Shown: in pieces, positions 5,180 through 35,951 of the stretch
Numbering within the stretch: position 1 is the first letter of the stretch
How the letters are laid out: the number at the start of each line of letters is the position of its first letter
Made by a program: the position numbers and the translations under genes
Source: a virus
DNA: 45,646 nucleotides
Strand: one strand, 5' to 3'
IMG/VR virus record: IMGVR_UViG_3300036852_000242
Coordinates: 1 to 45,646 of that record
Notes under the pieces: model-generated
Seen by the model: the letters and a program-made list of their open reading frames with translations, nothing else
Databases searched by the model: none
What the model was told of the DNA's origin: nothing

Positions 5180-5470
5180 GTGAACAGAGCACTGTCACCC
5201 GCGACGAACGCGGCCGGCATCGGCGCGGCCGCCGGCGCGCTGTGGGCGGCGGCCGTCATGGCGTGGAACGCCGCGCACGGCAACGGCGTCATCGACCCGC
5301 AGGTCATCGTCGCCGCCGCGGGGGCGGCCGCGTTCCTGTACACGCGGTTCAAGGTCACGCCCGTGGCTGACCCGAGGGACGGGGCGGGCAGGCCGCTGGT
5401 GCCCGCGATCCCCTCGCGCGGCGGGTTCACGCCGCCTGCGCCGCCGCCCGTGACAGGGCCTACGCCGTGA
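5180..5470 (+). CDS. Holin-like protein, two membrane spans
   Basis: A 96-residue protein with a GTG start eight bases after the previous stop. Two hydrophobic segments are visible, about residues 11-30 (AGIGAAAGALWAAAVMAW) and 38-56 (PQVIVAAAGAAAFLYTRF), followed by a short Pro-rich charged tail. Size, topology and position directly before a peptidase gene fit a holin. Its stop overlaps the next start. No biochemical signature distinguishes it from a generic small membrane protein. Confidence 0.7.
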   Translation: MNRALSPATNAAGIGAAAGALWAAAVMAWNAAHGNGVIDPQVIVAAAGAAAFLYTRFKVTPVADPRDGAGRPLVPAIPSRGGFTPPAPPPVTGPTP

Positions 5471-6003
5471 TGTCCCCCGCGCCCGGCACTATCGGGCTGG
5501 TGAAGATGAGCGCTCCCGCCGCGAGGTGGATCCGGCTGGGGCAGCTGCTGAACGGCGACGGGTTCGAGGACTTCGAGCACGCGTTCGTGTACCTCGGCGA
5601 TGCCGGGACGGGCAACATCCGGAACGGGATCATCGAGGCCGCGCCCGGCGGGTCCAGGATCGTCCCGCTGCATTACGACAACGTGCACTGGTGCGAGGGC
5701 ATCGCGAGCCTGCTGCCCGCCGGCGCTGACGTTCCCGGCGCGGCGCGCGGGCTTGCCGGCGTCCCGTACTCGTTCGCCGACTACGCCGCGTTGGTGGCGC
5801 ACCGGCTGCGCCTGCCCGTGCCGGGGCTTCGCGAGTTCATAGCCGCGTCGGGCCACCAGATCTGCTCGCAGCTGGCCGACGAGCTTTACCTCCGGCTAGG
5901 CGCGCACGTCTTTGACGACGGGCGCTGGCCGGGCTACGTGACGCCGGGCAGCCTGTACCGGCGTGACCTGGAACTACGAAAGGAAAAGAAGGCTGATGAC
6001 TGA
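5470..6003 (+). CDS. Permuted papain-like (YiiX/NlpC-P60-type) peptidase
   Basis: A 177-residue protein starting ATG in the overlap with the holin stop (GTG three bases earlier possible). It reads like the circularly permuted papain fold of the YiiX/NlpC-P60 superfamily: GTIGLVKM, then FEHAFVYLG with candidate catalytic His37, IIEAAPGGSRIVPL, and later HQICSQLADELY with candidate catalytic Cys132. Such proteins cleave amide bonds, often in peptidoglycan stem peptides. Location next to the holin and ahead of the GH25-like gene suggests an endolysin peptidase. The acyl-transferase/LRAT-like alternative is not excluded. Confidence 0.72.
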   Translation: MSPAPGTIGLVKMSAPAARWIRLGQLLNGDGFEDFEHAFVYLGDAGTGNIRNGIIEAAPGGSRIVPLHYDNVHWCEGIASLLPAGADVPGAARGLAGVPYSFADYAALVAHRLRLPVPGLREFIAASGHQICSQLADELYLRLGAHVFDDGRWPGYVTPGSLYRRDLELRKEKKADD

Positions 6004-7159: not shown

Positions 7160-7378
7160 ATGGGTCACTGGGTTATCCACATCGAGGGGCACGGCATCCA
7201 CGACAACGGGCGCGAGGACGACGCTGACAGCATGGCCCGTGACTTCGCGGGCAAGCTGCGCGTTGCCGGGCACGACGTGCATGCCGTGTCGTTCACGAGC
7301 GGCGCGACCAAGACGCTGCCCGTCGCTAGCACCGGCAGCGTTGAGGCACCCCCGGAGGACTACCAGTACCGCCCCTGA
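7160..7378 (+). CDS. Small conserved-looking phage protein
   Basis: A 72-residue protein with a good ribosome site (AGGAAGGGAAG) before ATG. It begins GHWVIHIEGHGIHDN and continues with an acidic helix (EDDADSMARDFAGKL) and HDVHAVSFTSG. The His/Asp-rich N-terminus might bind a metal. It is the last gene before a strong terminator. I do not recognise a function. Confidence 0.7.
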   Translation: MGHWVIHIEGHGIHDNGREDDADSMARDFAGKLRVAGHDVHAVSFTSGATKTLPVASTGSVEAPPEDYQYRP

Positions 7379-7400: not shown

Positions 7401-7440
7401 ACAGCCCCCGCCCGGACGAATCCGGGCGGGGGCTGTTTCG
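7401..7440 (+). terminator. Strong intrinsic terminator at end of late/lysis operon
   Basis: A 16-bp perfect stem (7401-7416 paired with 7421-7436) with loop CGAA, followed by TTTCG including the last stem base. It marks the boundary between the plus-strand lysis genes and the minus-strand accessory cassette. The stem could also work in the opposite direction. Confidence 0.85.
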
Positions 7441-9952: not shown

Positions 9953-9980
9953 CCCGCGTGCCACAACTCTGGCCCGCGAA

Positions 9981-9991
9981 TGGTAGTACAC
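9981..9991. promoter_or_regulatory. Operator-like site 4 (reverse of GTGTACTACCA)
   Basis: TGGTAGTACAC on the plus strand is the reverse complement of GTGTACTACCA. It overlaps the predicted integrase -10 element, so a protein bound here would block the integrase promoter. Confidence 0.58.
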
Positions 9992-10000
9992 TCCACGGCA
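9987..10000 (+). promoter_or_regulatory. -10 element and leaderless start of integrase
   Basis: TACACT (9987-9992) is followed by seven bases and ATG at 10000. There is no Shine-Dalgarno sequence ahead of this ATG, which fits a leaderless mRNA. The -35 is not clear. Confidence 0.5.
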
Positions 10001-11409
10001 TGGCTGACAAGGCCGCGCTGGCGGCGATCTACACCCGCATGTCATACGCGCTCGACCACGACCAGACCAAGGTCCGCGACCAGGAGCGCATCGCCCGCAG
10101 CCTGGCCGCCGCCCGCGGCATCCCGGTCCGCGAGGAGTCCGTCTACTGCGACAACAACCGCTCGGCGTGGGCGCGCAACCGCAAGCGGCCAGGCTGGGAC
10201 GCCATGCTCGCCGACGTCGACGCCGGGCGCGTCGGCGTGATCATCACCTACCACGGCGACCGCATGATCAGGCAGCCGCGCGACCTGGAGACGCTCATCG
10301 AGCTGGCCGACTCCAGGAGGGTCCGGGTGATCTCCGTGTCCGGCGACAAGGACCTCGACAGCGCCGAGGACCGGTACGTGCTGCGCATCGAGGCGGCCGC
10401 GCAGTGCAAGTCCTCCGACGACACGAGCCGCCGGCGCAAGGCGCAGTACCAGCGGTGGGCGCTGGAGGGCCGCGTGCAGGCCGCGGTGTCCGGCGGCCGG
10501 CGCATGGGCTTCGCGCCCGACGGGCTGCGGCTGTGGCCGGCCTGCCGGTGCGACGCCGTCACCCGCGCCGAGGTGTCCGAGGCCGACGTGATCCGCGAGA
10601 TGGCGCGCCGCGTGCTGGCCGGGGAGTCGCGCCGCTCCGTCGCGGCGAGCCTCGCCGCCCGCGGCTGGACCGCGCCGTCCGGCGCGCCGGTCACGGCCGA
10701 GCGGGTGCGCGACTGGCTGGCCAACCCGCGCTACGCCGGCCTGATGCCCGACGGGGAGAGCAAGGCGGCGTGGCCGGCGATCCTGGAGCGGGAGGAGTGG
10801 GAGGCGCTGCGCGTCGTAGGCGGCCGGATCGCCGGCGCTAACCCGCGGCCGACCAACGCGCGCCGCTGGCTGCTGTCCGGCATCGCCGCCTGCGGCCGCT
10901 GCGGCGCGCCCCTGTCCACCGGGGCTTCCGGCGAGGGCTACAGCGCCTACACGTGCCCGGCCCACCACCTGCGGCGCGCGGCGGAGCCGCTGGACGCCTA
11001 CGTGTCCGGCTACGTGACGGAGGCGCTCGCCGATCCCGCCGGGCCTCCGGCGGCGCTGCCCGCCAGCCCGGCGGCGGCCGCCGAGTGGCGGGCGCTGGAG
11101 GCTGAGCAGGCCGACGCGGAGGCGCAGCTGGCGGACTACCGCGCGAGCGCCAGGCGGTCCCGGCTGCTCAACGCGCGCCTCGACGGCATCGAGCGGCGGA
11201 TGGCGCAACTCCGCGAGGCCGCGGGCACGTCCGCGCGGGAGCGGCTGGCGCGCCAGTACCAGGGGATCACGCTGGAGGCGTTCCGGGGGCTGCCGTTGGA
11301 CGTCCGCCGCGCCCTGGTGCGCGCGACCGTGACGGTGACCGTGCTGCCCGCGTCCCGGCGCGGGCCGGGGTTCCGCGAGTGCGACGTCCGCGTGGAGCGG
11401 GCGGGCTAG
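10000..11409 (+). CDS. int: Large serine recombinase (integrase)
   Basis: A 469-residue protein. The N-terminal resolvase domain starts AAIYTRMS with nucleophile Ser15, then KVRDQERI and VIITYHGDRMIRQPRDLETL. It is followed by the recombinase domain (VLAGESRRSVAASLAARGWT; NPRYAGLMP), a zinc ribbon (Cys298, Cys301, Cys319, His322/323) and a coiled coil (about residues 360-410), the plan of phage large serine integrases. It integrates the genome by attP x attB recombination; excision would need a directionality factor not recognised here. The stop TAG shares CTAG with the convergent gene's stop. Confidence 0.95.
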   Translation: MADKAALAAIYTRMSYALDHDQTKVRDQERIARSLAAARGIPVREESVYCDNNRSAWARNRKRPGWDAMLADVDAGRVGVIITYHGDRMIRQPRDLETLIELADSRRVRVISVSGDKDLDSAEDRYVLRIEAAAQCKSSDDTSRRRKAQYQRWALEGRVQAAVSGGRRMGFAPDGLRLWPACRCDAVTRAEVSEADVIREMARRVLAGESRRSVAASLAARGWTAPSGAPVTAERVRDWLANPRYAGLMPDGESKAAWPAILEREEWEALRVVGGRIAGANPRPTNARRWLLSGIAACGRCGAPLSTGASGEGYSAYTCPAHHLRRAAEPLDAYVSGYVTEALADPAGPPAALPASPAAAAEWRALEAEQADAEAQLADYRASARRSRLLNARLDGIERRMAQLREAAGTSARERLARQYQGITLEAFRGLPLDVRRALVRATVTVTVLPASRRGPGFRECDVRVERAG

Positions 11410-15615: not shown

Positions 15616-15977
15616 GCGACGGCAAGGGCACGAAGGTGCTCGCCGAGGGCATCATGACCGGCCCGCTGGCCCCGCTCGCCTGGACGATCGCCGTCCTCGG
15701 CTGCGGCGGCATCGCCGTCGCGGTGCTCGCGTGCATCGGCGGGTGGGTGCTGCGGGACCTGTGGGACAAGGGCGACGGCCAGGGCGGCATACCGCCGCTG
15801 CCCCGCGACGGGACGACGCAGCAGCTGCCGCTAGGCGACCTCGTCATCGCCCCGCCGGAGTGGCGGCACGCCGCGTACATGGCCGCGCGGCCCGCGCCGG
15901 ATGCCACCGAGGTCATCTGCCGCGGGCGCGGCCTCGGCGACCTGGACCCTGACCCCGCGCTAGGAGACGACTGGTGA
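15612..15977 (+). CDS. Early membrane protein
   Basis: A 121-residue protein with ATG overlapping the previous TGA. Residues about 16-43 are hydrophobic (PLAPLAWTIAVLGCGGIAVA, VLACIGGWVL), one long or two short spans, followed by a soluble acidic tail. It precedes the recombination genes and is translationally coupled to them. Function unknown. Confidence 0.62.
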   Translation: MSDGKGTKVLAEGIMTGPLAPLAWTIAVLGCGGIAVAVLACIGGWVLRDLWDKGDGQGGIPPLPRDGTTQQLPLGDLVIAPPEWRHAAYMAARPAPDATEVICRGRGLGDLDPDPALGDDW

Positions 15978-16990
15978 GCGCCGTCCTGATCCCGACCGCG
16001 TCCGAGGAGGAGTGGCTGGCCGCCCGCCGCAAGGGCGTCACCGCCTCCGAGATCGCCGTCCTGATGGGCCTGTCCCCGTACGACAGCCCCTACGGCCTCT
16101 ACCACCGCAAGCTCGGCATCCTGCCCGCCGGTGACGACTCCGACGTCATGGAGAAGGGCCGCGTCCTCGAGCCGGTCATCGCGGAGAAGTTCGCCGCACT
16201 GCACCCGGAGTGGATCGTCACCGGCAACGGGCGCCAGCTGTACGCGCACCGTGACCGCGCCTGGCAGCTCGCCACCCCGGACAGGCTCGTCAACGTCAAC
16301 CCCATCGACCCGGCCCAGTGGCTCAAGGGAACGGAAGGCGCCGTCCTGGAGTGCAAGGTCGACGGCGGCAGCCCCGACTGGGGCGAGCCGGGCACCGACG
16401 AGATACCCGTCCACTACCGCGCCCAGGTGCTGTGGCAGTGCCGCGTCATGGGCGTCACCCGCTGGCACGCCGCCTGCTTCAATGCCGACCGGTGGAAGGC
16501 CCGCTGGTACGAGGGCGTCATCGACGACGCAGCCGAGGCCGACCTCGCCCTGATGGAAGACGAGGCCCGCGACTTCCTCGATCGCCTCGACCGCCATGAT
16601 CCGCCCGAGGTCGACTGGCGGCCGGCCACCATCGGCGCGCTGAAGACGCTGTACGCGGGCGAGCCTGACGGCGACGTCGAGGTGCGCCGGTCGCTGGCCA
16701 TCCAGTACCGCGCCGCCTGCCGCCGGTTCAAGGAGGCCGAGCGGCGCAAGGACGAGATGACCGCCCGCATGCTCGCCGCGATCGGCAACGGCCGCCGCGC
16801 CATCGAGGCATGCACCGACCTCGACGGCAGTGGCGGCACCGTCATCGCCACCCGCTCCGTCAGCCACCCCAGGCGCATCGACACCGAGCGGCTGCGCGCC
16901 GAGCAGCCCGCCATCGCCGCGCAGTACACCAAGCCGCCCAAGCCGGAGCCGAAGCTGACCCCGGCCAAGCCGAAGAAGGACGTCAAGTGA
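15974..16990 (+). CDS. YqaJ/RecE-like phage exonuclease
   Basis: A 338-residue protein, GTG start overlapping the upstream stop. It has the YqaJ/lambda-exonuclease pattern: RRKGVTASEIAVLMGLSP near residue 20, VLEPVIAEKF, LATPDRLV, and LECKVD (Glu126, Lys128), the E-x-K of the PD-(D/E)xK core, then AQVLWQCRVMGV. Such enzymes resect double-stranded DNA 5' to 3' and hand single strands to an annealing protein; the next gene encodes the RecT partner. The Pro/Lys-rich C-terminus may be a contact tail. Confidence 0.88.
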   Translation: MSAVLIPTASEEEWLAARRKGVTASEIAVLMGLSPYDSPYGLYHRKLGILPAGDDSDVMEKGRVLEPVIAEKFAALHPEWIVTGNGRQLYAHRDRAWQLATPDRLVNVNPIDPAQWLKGTEGAVLECKVDGGSPDWGEPGTDEIPVHYRAQVLWQCRVMGVTRWHAACFNADRWKARWYEGVIDDAAEADLALMEDEARDFLDRLDRHDPPEVDWRPATIGALKTLYAGEPDGDVEVRRSLAIQYRAACRRFKEAERRKDEMTARMLAAIGNGRRAIEACTDLDGSGGTVIATRSVSHPRRIDTERLRAEQPAIAAQYTKPPKPEPKLTPAKPKKDVK

Positions 16991-18066
16991 CACAGACAGT
17001 CAGTAACGCCGTCGCCAAGAGGGACTCCGGCGCCGCCGAGCTCGTCCGCCAGTCCCGCGACTGGTTCCGCACCATCGTCCCGTCCCACGTCGACGCCAAC
17101 GCGTTCGTCGCCCTGTCCATCGGCTACCTGCGCAAGAACCCCAAGCTCGCCGCCGCCGCCGTCCGCGCCCCGGCCGCGTTCACCGTCGCCCTGTCCGAGT
17201 GCGCCCGCCTCGGCCTCGTCCCCGGCGACACCTACCACCTGGTGCCGTTCGAGAACACCCGCAACGGCACCGTCGACATCACCGGCATCACCGACTACAA
17301 GGGCGAGATCGAGCTGATCTACCGGGCCGGGGCCGTCGCCTCGGTCAAGGCCGAGATCGTCCGCGAGCGCGACCACTTCCGCTACACCACCGACATGGAC
17401 CGCCCCGAGCACGCCCCCGACTGGTTCGGCGACCGCGGCGGCCTGATCGGCGCGTACGCCTACGCGGTGATGAAGGACGGCGCGACGTCGAAGGTCATCG
17501 TCTACTCGAAGGCCGAGATCGACGAGGTCCGCGCGTCATCCAAGGGCGCGTCCCGGCCAGACAGCCCGTGGAACCAGTGGTATGACCGGATGGCGCTCAA
17601 GACCGTCATCCACCGGCTGGAGCACTTCGTCCCCACCTCGGCGGAGTACCGGCGCGAGCAGCTCCGCGCGGCGGCCGAGGTCAGCCAGCAGGTGAACCTG
17701 TCCGCCCCGCCGGCTGCCGCTGCCCCCGCGCCCGCTGCCCCCGCGCCCGACGTCGTCGACGCCGAGATCGTCGATGAGCCGCAGCAGCCCGCGCCACGCC
17801 GGCCCAGGGGACAGCAGGCCCGGCAGGAAGCGCCGCCGGAGGACCCGCGCGACGCCGTCACCTGGCACCTGGACCGGGTCGGGATCGTCGCCTACCAGCC
17901 CCAGATGGACGTGCTCACCCAGGCCGTGGACCGCGCCGTCACGGGCATCGACGGCATCACCGTCGAGGAGGCCGCCGCGCTCGCGGCCCGGCTCGCGAAG
18001 TGCGCCACCCCGGCCGACGTCGACGTGATGCTCAGGACCGGGGAGGTGCCCTCCGGTGGCGAGTGA
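16987..18066 (+). CDS. recT: RecT-family single-strand annealing protein
   Basis: A 359-residue protein, GTG start overlapping the exonuclease stop. The RecT core is clear: FVALSIGYLRKNPKLAAA, FTVALSECARLGLVPGDTYH, DITGITDYKGEIELIYRAGA, GAYAYAVMKDG, PWNQWYDRMALKTVIHRL. A Pro/Ala linker and a C-terminal helical domain follow. RecT proteins coat and anneal single-stranded DNA; with the upstream nuclease this is a complete phage recombination pair for genome concatemers or circularisation. Confidence 0.93.
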   Translation: MTQTVSNAVAKRDSGAAELVRQSRDWFRTIVPSHVDANAFVALSIGYLRKNPKLAAAAVRAPAAFTVALSECARLGLVPGDTYHLVPFENTRNGTVDITGITDYKGEIELIYRAGAVASVKAEIVRERDHFRYTTDMDRPEHAPDWFGDRGGLIGAYAYAVMKDGATSKVIVYSKAEIDEVRASSKGASRPDSPWNQWYDRMALKTVIHRLEHFVPTSAEYRREQLRAAAEVSQQVNLSAPPAAAAPAPAAPAPDVVDAEIVDEPQQPAPRRPRGQQARQEAPPEDPRDAVTWHLDRVGIVAYQPQMDVLTQAVDRAVTGIDGITVEEAAALAARLAKCATPADVDVMLRTGEVPSGGE

Positions 18067-20471: not shown

Positions 20472-20617
20472 AGTGGCCGTTCCGCCGCGAGCCGGAGCCG
20501 TCAAAGGACCTGGAGCGCAAGCTGCGCGCCGCGTTCGCCGCCGCCGACCAGGCCGCCGACGAGGCGGACGCGGCGGCAGACGCGGCACGGCGCGAGCAGG
20601 AGGACGAGGCAACGTGA
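20468..20617 (+). CDS. 49-residue coiled-coil protein
   Basis: GTG start in a GTGA overlap. After KWPFRREPEPSKD the protein is one Ala/Asp/Glu-rich helix (LERKLRAAFAAADQAADEAD). Its stop overlaps the methyltransferase start in turn. The coupling on both sides supports translation; function unknown. Confidence 0.55.
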   Translation: MKWPFRREPEPSKDLERKLRAAFAAADQAADEADAAADAARREQEDEAT

Positions 20618-21447
20618 AGCCCCCGTTCACCTACTTCGGCGGCAAGACCCGCATAGCCGCCCAGGTGGCCGCGCTGCTGCCCCCGCACGAGCACTACGTG
20701 GAGCCGTTCGCCGGGAGCCTCGCCGTCCTGCTCGCCAAGCCCCGCGCGCCCATGGAGACCGTCTCCGACCTTGACGGGGACCTGGTGGCGTTCTGGCGCG
20801 TGCTGCGCGACCGCCCGGGCGACCTGGAGCGGGCATGCGCCCTCACGCCCCACGCGCGGGCCGAGCACCTTGAGGCGTACCAGCCGGCCGCCGATGACCT
20901 GGAGCGCGCCCGCCGCGTGTGGGTGCGCCTCACCCAGGGGCGAAGCGGCCAGCTGCACCACCTGACCGGCTGGCGGTACTACCAGGACCCGCGTGGCTCC
21001 CATTCCTCCATGCCGGGCTACCTCGAGGCCTACTGCTCGCGGCTCGCCCCGGCCGCGGCGCGTCTCGCCGGCGTCTCGCTGGAGTGCCTGCCCGCGCTGG
21101 AGCTGATCCGCCGCTACGGCCGGCATGAGGACGTCCTCATCTACGCCGACCCGCCGTACCTGGAGTCATCACGGTCATCAGCCGGGCGCGGCCCGTCCTA
21201 CCGGCACGAGCTGCGCACCGGGGACGACCACCGCGAGCTTGCCGCGGCCCTCCTCGAGGCCCGCGCCGCCGTGGTGCTGTCCGGCTACGGCTCGCCGCTG
21301 TACGACGAGCTGTACGCGGGATGGGGACGCCGCGAGATCGGCGCGTACACCGGCAACTCGCGCGCGGGCAACGGCCACCGCGCCGAGGTGCCGTGGTCCA
21401 ACCGCCCGTTCGCCCAGGCGTCGCTGTTCGACGCGCAGGCCATCTAG
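20614..21447 (+). CDS. D12-class (Dam-like) adenine-N6 DNA methyltransferase
   Basis: A 277-residue protein with GTG start overlapping the upstream TGA. Motif I-like FTYFGGKTRIA (residues about 5-15), HYVEPFAGSLAVLL, and catalytic motif DPPY at 179-182 (ILIYADPPYLES) define the Dam/D12 family; AVVLSGYGSPLYDELY follows. It would methylate adenine in a short DNA site. No cognate restriction gene is nearby, so protection from host restriction or regulation is more likely. Confidence 0.9.
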   Translation: MKPPFTYFGGKTRIAAQVAALLPPHEHYVEPFAGSLAVLLAKPRAPMETVSDLDGDLVAFWRVLRDRPGDLERACALTPHARAEHLEAYQPAADDLERARRVWVRLTQGRSGQLHHLTGWRYYQDPRGSHSSMPGYLEAYCSRLAPAAARLAGVSLECLPALELIRRYGRHEDVLIYADPPYLESSRSSAGRGPSYRHELRTGDDHRELAAALLEARAAVVLSGYGSPLYDELYAGWGRREIGAYTGNSRAGNGHRAEVPWSNRPFAQASLFDAQAI

Positions 21448-21466: not shown

Positions 21467-22012
21467 GTGCGCAAGGCGCTTCCCCCGGACCCGCCGGACG
21501 GGCTGACCGCCGTGAGCCCGGGCACGTGGACGCCCGCATGGGCGCGGGTAATAGCCACCCCGGCAGTAAAGGGCACCGGGTTCGCATTGCTGAACTGGGC
21601 CGACTTCAGGACCGGCGCGGATATCCGGCCCGGGGTGGCGCTGCTAATGAAGGCGAGCGGCATCCGGTCGGACAAGACCGTCCGCGACGCGCTCCGGCAA
21701 ATGCGGGACTGGGGCATGGTATGGCGCTACCGGGAGGGGTCGAAATCGGGCCGGAATGGCTGCGAGGACGAATACCGGCTGACATTCCCAGACGATATCG
21801 GTGCCATTCCGATGTGGCCGCCGGACTGGGGGGAGCCGTTACCCGGCCTGTGGATAACCTCTCGAACACCGGTAGTGAGTACCGGTGTTCCGGCCCCGCG
21901 CCTCCGGCGAACACCGGTAATGAGTACCGGTGTTCCGGGTTATCCACAGGTACTCATTACCGGTGTTCCGCAGGCCGCACCTCTTATAGCCCCCTACGGG
22001 GGCTGGTTTTGA
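21467..22012 (+). CDS. Winged-helix replication initiator-like protein
   Basis: A 181-residue protein, GTG start with AGGA eight bases upstream. Residues about 38-110 form a winged-helix domain: GFALLNWADFRTGADIRPGV, LLMKASGIRSDKTVRDALRQ, MRDWGMVWRYREG, as in plasmid/phage initiators and DnaD-like N-domains. The C-terminal 50 residues are encoded by the iteron array and read as repeated TPV(V/M)STGVP units. I infer that it binds the inverted repeats within its own gene and recruits host DnaA. A frame starting GTG 21463 is an Arg/Gly-rich shadow. Confidence 0.7.
   Translation: MRKALPPDPPDGLTAVSPGTWTPAWARVIATPAVKGTGFALLNWADFRTGADIRPGVALLMKASGIRSDKTVRDALRQMRDWGMVWRYREGSKSGRNGCEDEYRLTFPDDIGAIPMWPPDWGEPLPGLWITSRTPVVSTGVPAPRLRRTPVMSTGVPGYPQVLITGVPQAAPLIAPYGGWF
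21849..21968. other. Putative replication origin: inverted-repeat iterons and DnaA boxes
   Basis: A DnaA box TGTGGATAA (21849-21857) is followed by two inverted repeats with arms GAACACCGGTA/TACCGGTGTTC and centres GTGAG (21864-21890) and ATGAG (21909-21935), then a DnaA box in the other orientation, TTATCCACA (21940-21948), and a third, inverted and left-truncated copy (21949-21968). Both boxes match TTATNCACA exactly. All of this lies inside the initiator coding sequence, and a terminator follows. The arrangement is that of an iteron origin. Confidence 0.72.
21988..22010 (+). terminator. Intrinsic terminator at end of initiator gene
   Basis: AGCCCCC (21988-21994), loop TAC, GGGGGCT (21998-22004), then GGTTTT. 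The hairpin covers the last codons of the initiator gene, so transcripts of the upstream early operon may end here. Confidence 0.75.
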
Positions 22013-22123
22013 CCTAACCAGAACTTCAAGACCGACCCAGCCACAACCATGGTCCCGACCGAGCAACCTCCGTGGAAGCGCGCGAGCCGGACCGGGAGCG
22101 GAAAAGCGGAACGGGGGAAGTCA

Positions 22124-29283: not shown

Positions 29284-30777
29284 GTGGGCGTCCTTGACCG
29301 GGTGAACGCCCGCGCGGCGCGGCGCGGGCACGGCGATGAGGCCCGTTTCGGGATCGATGACTGGATCAGCCAGTACCTGATCCCGTCGGCGGGCCAGTTC
29401 AACTTCGGCGGGGTCACGTACCCGTTCGGCGGCCTGTCGGGGCTGAGCCAGACGCTGGCGGGCGCGCGGGCGGCGGAGATCGCGAACTCGCTGCCGGGGT
29501 ACCGGGCGGCGCTGCAGCAGTGCCCGCCGGCGTTCGCGGCGCAGATGGTGCGGGCGCTGGTGCTGTCGCAGGCGCGGTTCACGTTCCGTAACCCGCCGTG
29601 GCACCCGAGGACGCCGCGGCGGCTGTTCAGCAACGGCGACCTGGCGGTGCTGGAGAAGCCGTGGCCGAACGGGACGACCGGGGACCTGGTGTCGCGGATG
29701 GAGTGGCACGCGGGCCTGGCCGGGAACGCGTTCGTGCTGCGGCAGCCCAGGCGGCTGCGGGTGATGCGCCCGGACTGGACGGCGATCCTGTACGGGTCGG
29801 AGACGGAGCCGGAGTGGCCGTCGGGGGCGCTGGACGCGGAGCTGCTCGGCTACGTGCACGCGAACCGGGGGATCGGCAACGGGGAGCCGCGGCTGCTGCT
29901 GCCGGCGGACGTGGCGCACTGGGCGCCGCTGCCGGACCCGGAGATGACCGGGCTGGGCATGAGCTGGCTGACGCCGGCTATCCGGGAGATGCAGGTTGAC
30001 CGGCTGGCGACCGAGCACCAGCTGAGGTTCTTCGAGAACGGCGCGACGCCGAACCTGGTCGTCAAGGGGATCCCGGCGATTGACCGCACCAAGTTCGACG
30101 AGCTCGTCGCGATGATGGAGGCGGAGCACGCCGGGGTGGCGAACGCCTACCGGACGCTGTACCTGGTGGCGGGCGCGGACGCGCAGGTGATCGGGTCGCA
30201 CCTGGCGGACCTGGACCTGAAGGGGATCCAGGGGGCGCGGGAGACGCGCCTGTCGGTGCTGAGCCGGGTGCCGGCGGCGCTGCTGGGGATCTCCGAGGGC
30301 CTGTCCGGGTCGTCGCTGAACGCGGGGAACTTCTCGGCGGCGCGGCGGCTGTTCACGGACTCGTGGGTATCGCCGTCGCTGCAGGGCCTGGCGGCGGCGC
30401 TGTCGACGATCATGACGGTCCCTGATGACGCGGAGCTGTGGACCGACACCACGGACATGCCGATCCTGCGCGAGGACGCGAAGGACGCCGCGGACATCGG
30501 GCAGGTGCAGGCCACCACGATCGCGACCTACGTGAAAGAGGGCTTCACGCCGGAGTCGTCGATCGCGGCGGTCCGCGGCCAGGACGTCACGCTGCTGAAG
30601 CACTCGGGCATGGTGAGCGTCCAGCTGTGGGCGCCGGGCGGTGAGTCGCCGCGCAAGCCCGAGCCGGGCGCGGAGTCGCCGTCCCAGCCGACGGGGTCCG
30701 GGTCGCCGTCGCTGAAGGGCGCGAAGGCCCCGGGCGATAAGGCGCTCATGGCACCGAACGGAGGCGGGAATGGCTGA
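29284..30777 (+). CDS. Portal protein (HK97 type)
   Basis: A 497-residue protein, GTG start. Typical portal text includes MEWHAGLAGNAFVLRQPRRL, VAHWAPLPDPEMTGLGMSWL, DRLATEHQLRFFENGATPNL and VLSRVPAALLGISEGLSGSS followed by NAGNFSAARRLFTDSW. It forms the dodecameric ring for DNA entry and tail attachment. The Pro/Ser/Lys-rich C-terminus is disordered. It overlaps the protease gene by eight bases. Confidence 0.92.
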   Translation: MGVLDRVNARAARRGHGDEARFGIDDWISQYLIPSAGQFNFGGVTYPFGGLSGLSQTLAGARAAEIANSLPGYRAALQQCPPAFAAQMVRALVLSQARFTFRNPPWHPRTPRRLFSNGDLAVLEKPWPNGTTGDLVSRMEWHAGLAGNAFVLRQPRRLRVMRPDWTAILYGSETEPEWPSGALDAELLGYVHANRGIGNGEPRLLLPADVAHWAPLPDPEMTGLGMSWLTPAIREMQVDRLATEHQLRFFENGATPNLVVKGIPAIDRTKFDELVAMMEAEHAGVANAYRTLYLVAGADAQVIGSHLADLDLKGIQGARETRLSVLSRVPAALLGISEGLSGSSLNAGNFSAARRLFTDSWVSPSLQGLAAALSTIMTVPDDAELWTDTTDMPILREDAKDAADIGQVQATTIATYVKEGFTPESSIAAVRGQDVTLLKHSGMVSVQLWAPGGESPRKPEPGAESPSQPTGSGSPSLKGAKAPGDKALMAPNGGGNG

Positions 30778-32521
30778 CGTGCCCGGCGGCCACGCGGACG
30801 CGCTGCACCGGTACTGGGTGCACGGCGAGGGCGCGGCGAAGATCGCCTGGGGCACTCCCGGCGACTTTGACCGCTGCGTCGTGGAGCTCGGCAAGTACAT
30901 CCATGACCCGAAGGGCTACTGCAACCTCGCGCACCACGCGGCGCTCGGCTACTACCCGGCGACGCACGCGAAGATGGAGGGGAAATCGGTGGCTGGCGAC
31001 GATGGCGACCCGCGGTTCAACCCGAATCACGTGCCGGGAGGCGCGGGCGGCGGCCAGTTCACGTCCGGCGGCGGGGGCGGCAAGGGCGCTGCCGGCAAGA
31101 AGCCCGCGCCCCGCCCTGCCCAGAAGCAGCTGACGGACCACGAGAAGCACGTGGCGCACATGAAGAACCTGGCCGCGCACCCGGTCGGCGAGGGCGAGTC
31201 CGGCCAGCGGGTCCGCGACCTGCAGGACCGCCTGAACGAGCTGGGCTTCAGCCTGGCCCCGGACGGCAAGTTCGGGCCGAAGACGCTGGCGGCGGTGCGC
31301 GCGTTCCAGCGTGCCCACAAGGACGCGTCCGGTCATCCGCTGGCCGTGGACGGCCTGGTGGGGCCGCTGACAATGGCGGCACTGGAGGCAGCGCGGCCTG
31401 CGGCGCCGCATAAGGCCGCGAGTCACGCCGGCCCCGCGCCGCACGGCGCCGGGAAGCAGAAGGGCAGGTCGGCGATGGCGGCGGGAACGGGCAGGCAGGT
31501 CATCGATGCGATCAGCAGGTACGACCGCGCCGCGAAGCCGTACGGCGATGTCACGTACGCGGACCCGAAGAACGGCAAGTACCCCATCGACACAGCAGAG
31601 CACGCCAAGGCGGCCTGGTCGTACATAAGCATGCCGGCGAACGCGGCGCAGTACCCGGTGAACGGGGTGACGCTGGCCGAGGTCAAGGACCGCATCATGG
31701 CGGCCTGCAAGAAGTTCGGCATCACCGTCAGCGACTCCGACGGCGACATGAACGCGGCGCACTTCGCCCCTGACGTGGACGTGGTCCGCTCCGGCGAGGG
31801 CATCACGCTGGAGCCCGCCGGCGACGGCTCGCTGGGGACGCTGACGGGCCGGTTCTCCGAGTTCGGCCGCTGGTACCCGGTGTCGTCGCGCCTAGAGGGC
31901 AGCTTCCGCGAGCGCGTCGCCCCTGGCGCGACCCTGGACACGATCCGCGATGACCGGGCGTCGATGCGGGTGCTGTTCGATCACGGGATGGACGGCCAGA
32001 TCGGCAACAAGGTGCTCGGCCCGATCGGCGCGCTGGACGAGCGGTCCGACGGCCCGTGGTATGAGGTGCCGCTGTTCGACACGTCCTACAACCGTGACCT
32101 GCTGCCGGGCCTGAAAGCCGGGGTGTACGGGGCGAGCATGCGCATGCGGGTCCTGGACGACTCCTGGGACGACGAGCCGAAGCGGTCGGCGGACAACCCG
32201 GAGGGGATCCCGGAGCGGACGATCACCCGGATGAAGGTGCTGGAGTTCGGCCCGGTGACGTTCCCGGCGAACCCTGGCGCGTCGGCGGGGGTCCGGTCGG
32301 CGACGGACGAGTTCTACGGCCGCCTCGCCGAGGTGAACCCCCCGGCGTTCGCGGACGCGGTGCGGGCCTGCGGCCTGCGCCCCGAAGACTTCACCGGCCT
32401 GGTTACCGCGCGGAGCGGCCCGGGCCGGGAGCACGACGTGCAGCCAGGCCACGGCAGGACGTCACCGACCACCAAGGCGGCCCTGCGCGACAGGGCCTGG
32501 CGCATGAGGGAGATCAGGTAG
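30770..32521 (+). CDS. Prohead serine protease fused to peptidoglycan-binding and other domains
   Basis: A 583-residue protein. Residues 1-70 form a small domain (RYWVHGEGAAKIAWGTPGDF, YCNLAHHAALGYY). A linker HVPGGAGGGQFTSGGG precedes a PG_binding_1-like repeat at about 141-208 (RVRDLQDRLNELGF, FGPKTLAAVRAFQRAH, VDGLVGPLTMAALE). A DUF6582-like part follows at about 255-310 (YPIDTAEHAKAAWSYI). The HK97-type prohead protease spans about 355-520, with candidate His405 (VLFDHGMDG) and Ser456 (VYGASMRMRV). The protease matures the capsid; the binding domain is unusual here. Confidence 0.85.
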   Translation: MADVPGGHADALHRYWVHGEGAAKIAWGTPGDFDRCVVELGKYIHDPKGYCNLAHHAALGYYPATHAKMEGKSVAGDDGDPRFNPNHVPGGAGGGQFTSGGGGGKGAAGKKPAPRPAQKQLTDHEKHVAHMKNLAAHPVGEGESGQRVRDLQDRLNELGFSLAPDGKFGPKTLAAVRAFQRAHKDASGHPLAVDGLVGPLTMAALEAARPAAPHKAASHAGPAPHGAGKQKGRSAMAAGTGRQVIDAISRYDRAAKPYGDVTYADPKNGKYPIDTAEHAKAAWSYISMPANAAQYPVNGVTLAEVKDRIMAACKKFGITVSDSDGDMNAAHFAPDVDVVRSGEGITLEPAGDGSLGTLTGRFSEFGRWYPVSSRLEGSFRERVAPGATLDTIRDDRASMRVLFDHGMDGQIGNKVLGPIGALDERSDGPWYEVPLFDTSYNRDLLPGLKAGVYGASMRMRVLDDSWDDEPKRSADNPEGIPERTITRMKVLEFGPVTFPANPGASAGVRSATDEFYGRLAEVNPPAFADAVRACGLRPEDFTGLVTARSGPGREHDVQPGHGRTSPTTKAALRDRAWRMREIR

Positions 32522-34273: not shown

Positions 34274-34516
34274 ATGGAAGTCGTCTACGCCACGTACACC
34301 GCGCAGGTGGTCACCCCTGACGGGGGCCGCCACACGGTCCACGGGGGGCAGCACTGGCACCCCAGGCACCCCGTGGTCCTGGCCGCGCCTGAAGGGCTGT
34401 TCTCGCCCGATGCCCGGTACGGGCTGTCGGGCGGCGTGCCGCCGGAGCTGGATGAGCCGCCGGTCGAGCAGGCGACGGCGGGGCCGGGCGAGAAGCGGGC
34501 CACGCGCCGTGGCTGA
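34274..34516 (+). CDS. Small hypothetical head-region protein
   Basis: An 80-residue protein with ribosome site CGGGAGAAG before ATG. A beta-like N-terminal half (VYATYTAQVVTPDGGRHTVH, QHWHPRHPVVLAAPEGLF) and an acidic/Pro tail. Small proteins of this type occur near head-tail connectors of actinobacterial phages. Function unknown. Confidence 0.62.
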   Translation: MEVVYATYTAQVVTPDGGRHTVHGGQHWHPRHPVVLAAPEGLFSPDARYGLSGGVPPELDEPPVEQATAGPGEKRATRRG

Positions 34517-35951
34517 CGTGGCCGCCCTGGACCGCGCGGGGGCAGTCGCCGTCGGCTACGTCTACGACGGGCACGACGTCACCTACAGCTGGCATCACAG
34601 CATGATCGAGCTGATCGGCTACGACCTGTGCCATGAGGCGCGGGTCATCCGCGGCGGGTACGTGGCGATGAAGTGCGGCACTGACGGCCTGGCCGACGCC
34701 CGCAACAAGGCCGTGAGGCTGTTCCTGAAGGAGAACCTGGCCGACTGGCTGTTCTGGGTGGACACCGACATGGGGTTCGCCGCTGACACGGTCGACCGGC
34801 TGATGGCGGCTGCCGACCCCGTGGAGCGGCCCATCGTCGGCGGGCTGGCGTTCACCTGGCGGGAGGACTCCTCCGACGGCATGGGCGGCTGGCGCACCTC
34901 GCCCGCGCCGACCATCTTCGACTGGCGGGTGCTGGACGACGGCCAGATGGGCTTCGTGGTCCGGTTCAACTACCCGCCGGACACGCTGACGCCCTGCGCG
35001 GGGACCGGCGCGGCGTGCGTGCTCATCCACCGGTCAGTGTTCGAGCGGGTTAAGGCCGAGTACGGCGAGCACTGGTATGACCGGATCCCGAACACGACGA
35101 CCGGGCAGCTGGTGTCCGAGGACCTGAGCCTGTGCCTGCGCGCGGGGGCGCTGAAGATCCCCGTCCACGTGCACACCGGGGTGAAGACGACCCACCAGAA
35201 GACGCTGTGGGTGGCGGAGGACGACTACATGGCGGCGCGGGTGCTGGCCGCCATGCCGCCCCCGGTGCCCGCCGCCACGGAGGAAGTGGCGGTGATCGTC
35301 CCGGTGCTGGGCAGGCCGGGCAACGCGGCCCCGTTCATGGCGTCGCTGAAGGCGTCCGGCGCTGAACTCGCCGCCGTGTACGCGGTCGCTGACGAGGACG
35401 ACGCGGAGACGGCGCGGGCGTGGAAGGAAGCCGGGGCCAGGGTCATCGCCATAGACCGGGCTAGCCTGCCCGGCAGGCCGGGGACGTTCGCCGAGAAGGT
35501 CAATGTCGCCTACCGGATGACGGAAGAGCCGTGGCTGCTGCTGGTCGGCGATGACGTCCGGTTCCGTCCGGGCTGGCTGGACCACGCGCAGCACGCGGCC
35601 CGCGACGGCGCTGACGTCATCGGCACCAATGACATGCACAGCCCCCGGTGCGCCACTGGAGAGTGGTCGCCGCACCCGGTGATCCGCCGCGCCTACGTCG
35701 ACGAGGTGGGCGCGTCGTGGGACGGCCCGAAGGTCGTGGCCCACGAGGGCTACCACCACAACTTCCCGGACGATGAGATCGCGGCGGCGGCGGCGCAGCG
35801 GGGCGCGTGGGCGTTCGCGGCGCACGCGAAGGTGGAGGCGCTGCACCCGATGTGGGGCAACGCGCCCGACGACGCGACGTACGCGCTGGGGCGCGAGCGG
35901 TTCGCCGAGGACAAGGCGCTGTTCGAGGCACGGGCGGGTGAGCACTCGTGA
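34509..35951 (+). CDS. Tandem glycosyltransferase (two GT-A domains)
   Basis: A 480-residue protein, GTG start overlapping the upstream gene by eight bases. The first domain (about 15-250) has CGTDGLADARNKAV, the metal-binding DTD in WLFWVDTDMGF (85-87), and EDLSLCLRAG. The second (about 260-470) restarts with VAVIVPVLGRPGNAAPFMAS and has LLLVGDDVRFRPGWLD (Asp348/349). Both look like family-2-type GT-A folds. Lying in the head module with a methyltransferase nearby, it may decorate a capsid or fibre protein, or less likely modified DNA. Confidence 0.82.
   Translation: MADVAALDRAGAVAVGYVYDGHDVTYSWHHSMIELIGYDLCHEARVIRGGYVAMKCGTDGLADARNKAVRLFLKENLADWLFWVDTDMGFAADTVDRLMAAADPVERPIVGGLAFTWREDSSDGMGGWRTSPAPTIFDWRVLDDGQMGFVVRFNYPPDTLTPCAGTGAACVLIHRSVFERVKAEYGEHWYDRIPNTTTGQLVSEDLSLCLRAGALKIPVHVHTGVKTTHQKTLWVAEDDYMAARVLAAMPPPVPAATEEVAVIVPVLGRPGNAAPFMASLKASGAELAAVYAVADEDDAETARAWKEAGARVIAIDRASLPGRPGTFAEKVNVAYRMTEEPWLLLVGDDVRFRPGWLDHAQHAARDGADVIGTNDMHSPRCATGEWSPHPVIRRAYVDEVGASWDGPKVVAHEGYHHNFPDDEIAAAAAQRGAWAFAAHAKVEALHPMWGNAPDDATYALGRERFAEDKALFEARAGEHS

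Follow-up and report, generated by a model that had tools for sequence, protein, structure and literature searches.

The segment 21849–21968, together with the low-GC stretch that follows it to about position 22060, is very probably the replication origin of a phage with an actinobacterial host, and the gene that holds the repeats encodes a winged-helix protein, the putative initiator. Positions refer to the window, the whole 45,646-nucleotide stretch of DNA that was analysed. An iteron-type origin inside an initiator gene had been proposed in a first-pass annotation of this DNA, and it is now supported by a repeat cluster conserved at the 3′ side of the winged-helix domain, by DnaA boxes and by weak scores to initiator families.

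The window is a 45.6-kb virus record that encodes a serine integrase, YqaJ/RecE, RecT, a methyltransferase, HNH, terminase, portal and capsid genes. The genes that bear on the argument are:
9958–11409, plus strand: serine-type integrase (phrog_95, 2.9e-59; also phrog_125, DNA invertase).
15974–16990, plus strand: YqaJ/RecE-like exonuclease (phrog_434, 2.4e-70), part of a recombination module upstream of the initiator gene.
16810–18066, plus strand: open reading frame with a RecT-like annealing protein (phrog_148, 1.8e-60), whose true start is internal.
20473–21447, plus strand: DNA methyltransferase open reading frame (phrog_56, 1.3e-56), adjoining the initiator gene upstream.
21467–22012, plus strand: putative winged-helix initiator gene of 181 codons, read as an open reading frame; the GTG start is uncertain.

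Its serine-type integrase makes a temperate, integrative phage probable. Among the approximately 40 open reading frames scanned, small ones being partly covered, none matched a polymerase, helicase or primase family, which agrees with the lack of such genes noted in the first pass. Three open reading frames elsewhere in the window were of separate interest. One (30770–32521) joins a head maturation protease (322–521) to endolysin-type domains (about 100–240), an unusual fusion; another, in the structural module (34410–35951), has two glycosyltransferase-like regions; and a third (5467–6003) matches phrog_1128, enoyl-CoA hydratase-like, at 3.3e-16.

The elements of the putative origin are arranged as follows:
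21847–21859, no strand: left arm, CCTGTGGATAACC, of a 13-bp inverted repeat, holding DnaA box 1.
21849–21857, minus strand: DnaA box 1, an exact match to TTATCCACA.
21864–21890, plus strand: iteron 1, GAACACCGGTA-GTGAG-TACCGGTGTTC, a perfect inverted repeat with 11-bp arms.
21909–21935, plus strand: iteron 2, GAACACCGGTA-ATGAG-TACCGGTGTTC, 45 bp after iteron 1.
21938–21950, no strand: right arm, GGTTATCCACAGG, of the 13-bp inverted repeat, spanning DnaA box 2.
21940–21948, plus strand: DnaA box 2, an exact match to TTATCCACA.
21942–21968 (about 21945–21968), minus strand: iteron 3, an inverted partial copy 33 bp after iteron 2.
21979–22058, no strand: low-GC stretch beyond the last iteron and candidate unwinding region (50-nt GC minimum 0.50).

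Two perfect inverted repeats (11-bp arms), a third, partial copy in inverted orientation and two exact boxes had already been reported here, and each was recovered at its place. One arm of iteron 3 is perfect; the other is degenerate and overlaps DnaA box 2. Both boxes are housed in a perfect 13-bp inverted repeat (CCTGTGGATAACC/GGTTATCCACAGG), a feature absent from the first-pass annotation. The density of repeats and boxes at 21849–21968 is far above chance. Shuffled sequences give an expectation of 0.045 TTATNCACA for the whole window and of about 1e-4 per 120 bp. The window lists six perfect inverted repeats (11-bp arms, 3–8-nt loops) compared to 0.43 per shuffle, three of the six being a single terminator-like hairpin at 7404 in overlapping registers, and only the pair at 21864 and 21909 is clustered, i.e. 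comprises two separate repeats less than 200 bp apart. A third exact TTATCCACA was found at 7173–7181, at the start of a small open reading frame and without surrounding repeats. A search of IMG/VR contigs with the exact iteron palindrome gave no match. The GC minimum of 0.50 stands against a mean of 0.73 and belongs to the lowest 0.4% of the window, which has further low-GC places. GC skew, suggested as a check, lends the repeats no clear support, its cumulative minimum lying at 25.3 kb.

The gene may start at GTG 21467 or at a later GTG, and its frame runs through the repeats to 22012, encoding the TPV-STGVP repeats as described earlier. The winged-helix domain occupies approximately residues 17–117 and the tail is disordered from about residue 129: AlphaFold models a confident winged helix, followed from residue 129 by a tail with block-mean pLDDT of about 43–58. 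The repeat-encoded peptide in the window is accordingly predicted to be disordered. Searching Pfam with the window protein gave no match, hence no RepA_N domain and no lambda O family. Its PHROG matches were phrog_26991 (3e-4), phrog_270, ‘replication initiation’ (0.006), and phrog_18020, ‘O-like’ (0.14), while its relatives reached 1.4e-43 with phrog_26991 and 3.2e-7 with ‘O-like’ profiles; the window protein and the relatives also have weak scores to many ‘replication initiation’ PHROGs. The proposed kinship of the winged-helix domain with replication-initiator families is thus reflected in profile scores that are present and weak. HTH_36 (PF13730) matches four of the five members of one alignment of relatives (A2). 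The window protein is a distant member of its family (22–37% identity), and phrog_26991 itself has no assigned function, being annotated solely as ‘helix-turn-helix’ in M. abscessus prophages.

Fold matches in the PDB were weak (TM 0.3–0.4), the best being 4pql (E = 0.022), labelled merely ‘N-terminal domain of DNA binding protein’, which we take to be RepA of staphylococci. Besides many repressors, the matches include an initiator (4pt7) and a complex of Rep with DNA (5kbj), and among the viral fold matches are phage HTH and O-like replication proteins. Since winged-helix proteins are mostly transcription factors and the weak PDB sequence matches are repressors, the repeats might be operators rather than an origin; the winged-helix protein would then be a transcription factor or an autoregulator, and DnaA a co-regulator. 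We regard this as improbable: the repeats are found where the gene ends or beyond its stop codon, away from the promoter, no near-exact iteron copies occur elsewhere in the window, the PHROG scores lean to replication, and the combination of DnaA boxes, phased half-sites and a low-GC stretch is a recurrent one. The winged-helix centromere binders AspA (5k5q) and pNOB8 (4rs8) are among the weak fold matches as well, which would suit a parS-like partition centromere bound by the winged-helix protein. This is very unlikely, as the phage encodes a serine integrase, no ParA-like family was matched among the open reading frames scanned, and a centromere needs neither DnaA boxes nor an adjacent low-GC stretch.

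Relatives with the protein but without repeats and boxes would have refuted the first-pass annotation; the comparison came out in its favour. When the window protein was the sole query, no close relative came up in viral or genome contigs, nor in phage records at E ≤ 0.01; relatives were reached through one plasmid match, weak phage matches, and alignment or profile scans. In the Micromonospora plasmid record CP108834 (locus L005), a 115-aa relative adjoins YqaJ and RecT, as in the window, and a recombination module upstream of the initiator is common to some relatives (L005, L010). The L005 gene has its stop codon within the first iteron of a GTCTGGGGATCA...TGATCCCC series, with TTATCCACA between iterons one and two and TGTGGATAA downstream. 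The M. abscessus prophages carry in-frame 33-bp repeats in the gene, TGTGGACAA boxes included. Alignment scans added 27 IMG/VR loci. Each locus was scored by repeated 10-mers in every 250-bp window, and the densest cluster lay directly 3′ of the winged helix in 32 of the 34 first-set loci (our window included), many of which are near-identical M. abscessus prophages, so that independent cases are far fewer; the exceptions are L038, where the site does not rank first, and L035, which is truncated at the site. In 395 actinomycete genomes, unselected for repeats, a profile search gave 11 matches, approximately eight of them with a clear iteron cluster directly 3′ of the domain. A second search (401 genomes), with a further viral scan, yielded 21 loci for analysis, and the cluster directly 3′ of the domain came out on top in 19 of these 21, which include duplicates (L056, L057 and L058 appear to be prophages L015, L016 and L044 again). 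A scan for nothing but a 20-bp DNA element, found downstream in some relatives, led to L044, where this gene and its iterons occur once more, together with two DnaA boxes. Relatives with the protein have kept repeats in this position, and those nearer to the window phage have kept DnaA boxes as well. The Arthrobacter phages Kumotta and Shoya were considered as syntenic guides and set aside, as their initiator types differ.

In the closer relatives, strict DnaA boxes cluster on the 3′ side of the winged helix and are nearly absent elsewhere in each locus. They are absent in the more distant relatives L010, L020, L023 and L047–L055 and in the family-level relatives L060, L062–L066, L068 and L070, and among the 11 profile-search loci they occur only in L046 and L045. 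With boxes missing from distant and several family-level relatives, a role for DnaA is not general across the wider group. The iterons without strict boxes in distant relatives would also fit an origin that makes no use of DnaA, its boxes being remnants or serving the initiator. This we hold to be the less likely alternative, although one with some weight, since strict boxes recur at the site in divergent close relatives and the window boxes stand in opposite orientations.

Whether DNA or peptide is the conserved unit can be read from the repeats themselves. In group A (L005, L014–L019, L044 and L046) a stop codon lies inside the first iteron. The codons of the window repeats have mean relative usages of 0.27 and 0.24, compared to 0.51 in the domain, and codon usage as low as this is found in 0–0.15% of 9-codon windows of other open reading frames. 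In each of the seven in-frame cases the repeats have a lower GC3 (p < 0.05 in six of the seven). The group-A stop, the rare repeat codons and the drop in GC3 indicate that DNA, and not peptide, is kept by selection; a purely protein-level reason for the repeats is rejected on account of the stops, the rare codons and the predicted disorder of the tail. We propose that the repeated peptide arises as a side effect of the DNA sequence. The double constraint on protein and DNA suggested earlier is not conserved, as the gene of one group ends in the first iteron. Part of the coding sequence in one phage, a gene-embedded origin can in this way follow the stop codon in another.

Iteron sequences vary between phage groups, and their spacings cluster at 21/22, 33/34 and 45/46 bp, i.e. 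at multiples of approximately 11 bp; the best-fitting period is 11–12 bp, with copies within one phage being non-independent. Arms of 11 bp with 5-nt loops could also fold in RNA, as hairpins of an early transcript (e.g. an attenuator). We give this hardly any credence: many relatives add tandem half-sites with spacing of approximately 22 bp that form no hairpin, and spacing in multiples of about 11 bp suits a DNA-bound protein.

The origin reading gains from a comparison of the recognition helix with the iteron core, which in nine relatives is TGGGGATCA, TGGGGGTCA or TGGGGGACA. Only one alignment column, located where the recognition helix begins, fully separates the three iteron classes in these nine (A/P, K and R), and 6 of 105 relabellings separate the classes equally well in the recognition-helix region. 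Later relatives are consistent, namely L059, L073 and L074 (P, GATCA), L075 (R, GACA) and, in part, L060; L062, L066 and L021 (K with GACA-like cores) are exceptions to the simple rule. The co-variation is suggestive, a lead rather than proof.

From the observed anatomy and its conservation we infer how binding and replication would proceed. Initiator dimers would bind the helically phased inverted iterons, as the anatomy and the partial co-variation with the recognition helix suggest, and host DnaA would bind the two flanking TTATCCACA boxes. The two proteins together would unwind the low-GC DNA beyond the last iteron, after which the host helicase and replisome would be brought in by host DnaA. 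The window initiator has no second folded domain.

Iteron plasmids of the P1, F and pSC101 type combine initiator iterons with host DnaA boxes and a low-GC region, and their iterons lie outside the rep gene. The window shares the iterons, boxes and low GC, but belongs to an integrative tailed phage and has its repeats in the gene. In lambda, initiator-binding iterons and an AT-rich tract lie inside the O gene, and the iteron number varies between lambdoid phages, adding residues to the protein (PMC7466680). The window resembles O and ori-lambda in having iterons inside the initiator gene and in its viral fold matches, which include O-like proteins. It differs in that its iterons come after the winged-helix domain, where the gene ends, and in relatives can fall past the stop codon, in that strict DnaA boxes are present and no lambda P-like loader was found, and in that the window protein has no O family match (‘O-like’ PHROG, 0.14).

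In RepA_N initiators of the pSK41 type, the N-terminal winged helix binds Rep boxes within the rep gene and the origin-encoded linker is dispensable; no DnaA boxes have so far been detected in staphylococcal plasmids (PMC5703833). The repeats inside the initiator gene and the weak top fold match to 4pql are shared features, whereas the window protein has neither a RepA_N Pfam match nor a C-terminal primase-binding domain, and DnaA boxes are present. The Rep of pPR9, a chimeric staphylococcal plasmid protein, joins a phage-like HTH_36 (PF13730) N-terminus to a pSK41-type C-terminal domain and supports autonomous replication (PMC5703833); HTH_36 is the domain matched in alignment A2, while the window protein itself has no Pfam match. 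For mycobacteriophage RepA replicons, which keep extrachromosomal prophages, a lambda-like location of the origin, in repA or upstream of it, has been suggested, and DnaA is unmentioned in the text (PMC7157519). These too are actinophage initiators, but the window phage has an integrase.

Iterons inside the initiator gene are thus already known from lambdoid phages and pSK41-type RepA_N plasmids. The combination sets the present case apart: the initiator is a winged helix alone or one extended by a tail, the iterons sit at the extreme 3′ end of the gene or beyond its stop codon, and strict DnaA boxes lie among them. No description of it in this phage group was found in the open-licence literature searched. 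It is possible, at a little short of an even call, that this represents a widespread class of integrative actinophage origin, with a minimal winged-helix-only initiator (down to 115 aa), helicase loading via host DnaA boxes woven between the iterons, iterons that diversify with the recognition helix, and a frame through the repeats that is kept or lost. On the origin reading phrog_26991 gains a likely function, and a simple rule for finding actinophage origins is at hand. Such origins would be a compact replicon source for actinobacteria, and the natural initiator/iteron pairs would make DNA-binding specificity readable from co-variation.

Several minor observations were made in the related loci. 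Genome G629 has tandem winged-helix family genes (L061/L069), with a repeat cluster after the second only. Directly after the last iteron, L005, L014–L018, L022 and L024 have a C/A-rich strand (CCACCAACCCATACCAACCACAACCA type), which could serve for unwinding or for single-strand loading. Shortly past the last iteron, an element YAACTCACGACCGCGCGAGC (core AACTCACGACCGCG) occurs as a single copy per locus; it is not in the window and lies at:
L016, 4589–4602
L017, 4631–4644
L018, 4575–4588
L019, 4574–4587
L021, 4586–4599
L022, 4604–4617
L044, 6365–6384

Upstream of the initiator, the M. abscessus prophages L006–L009 have an annotated DNA polymerase III beta clamp, and an open reading frame in L044 looks DnaN-like by eye.
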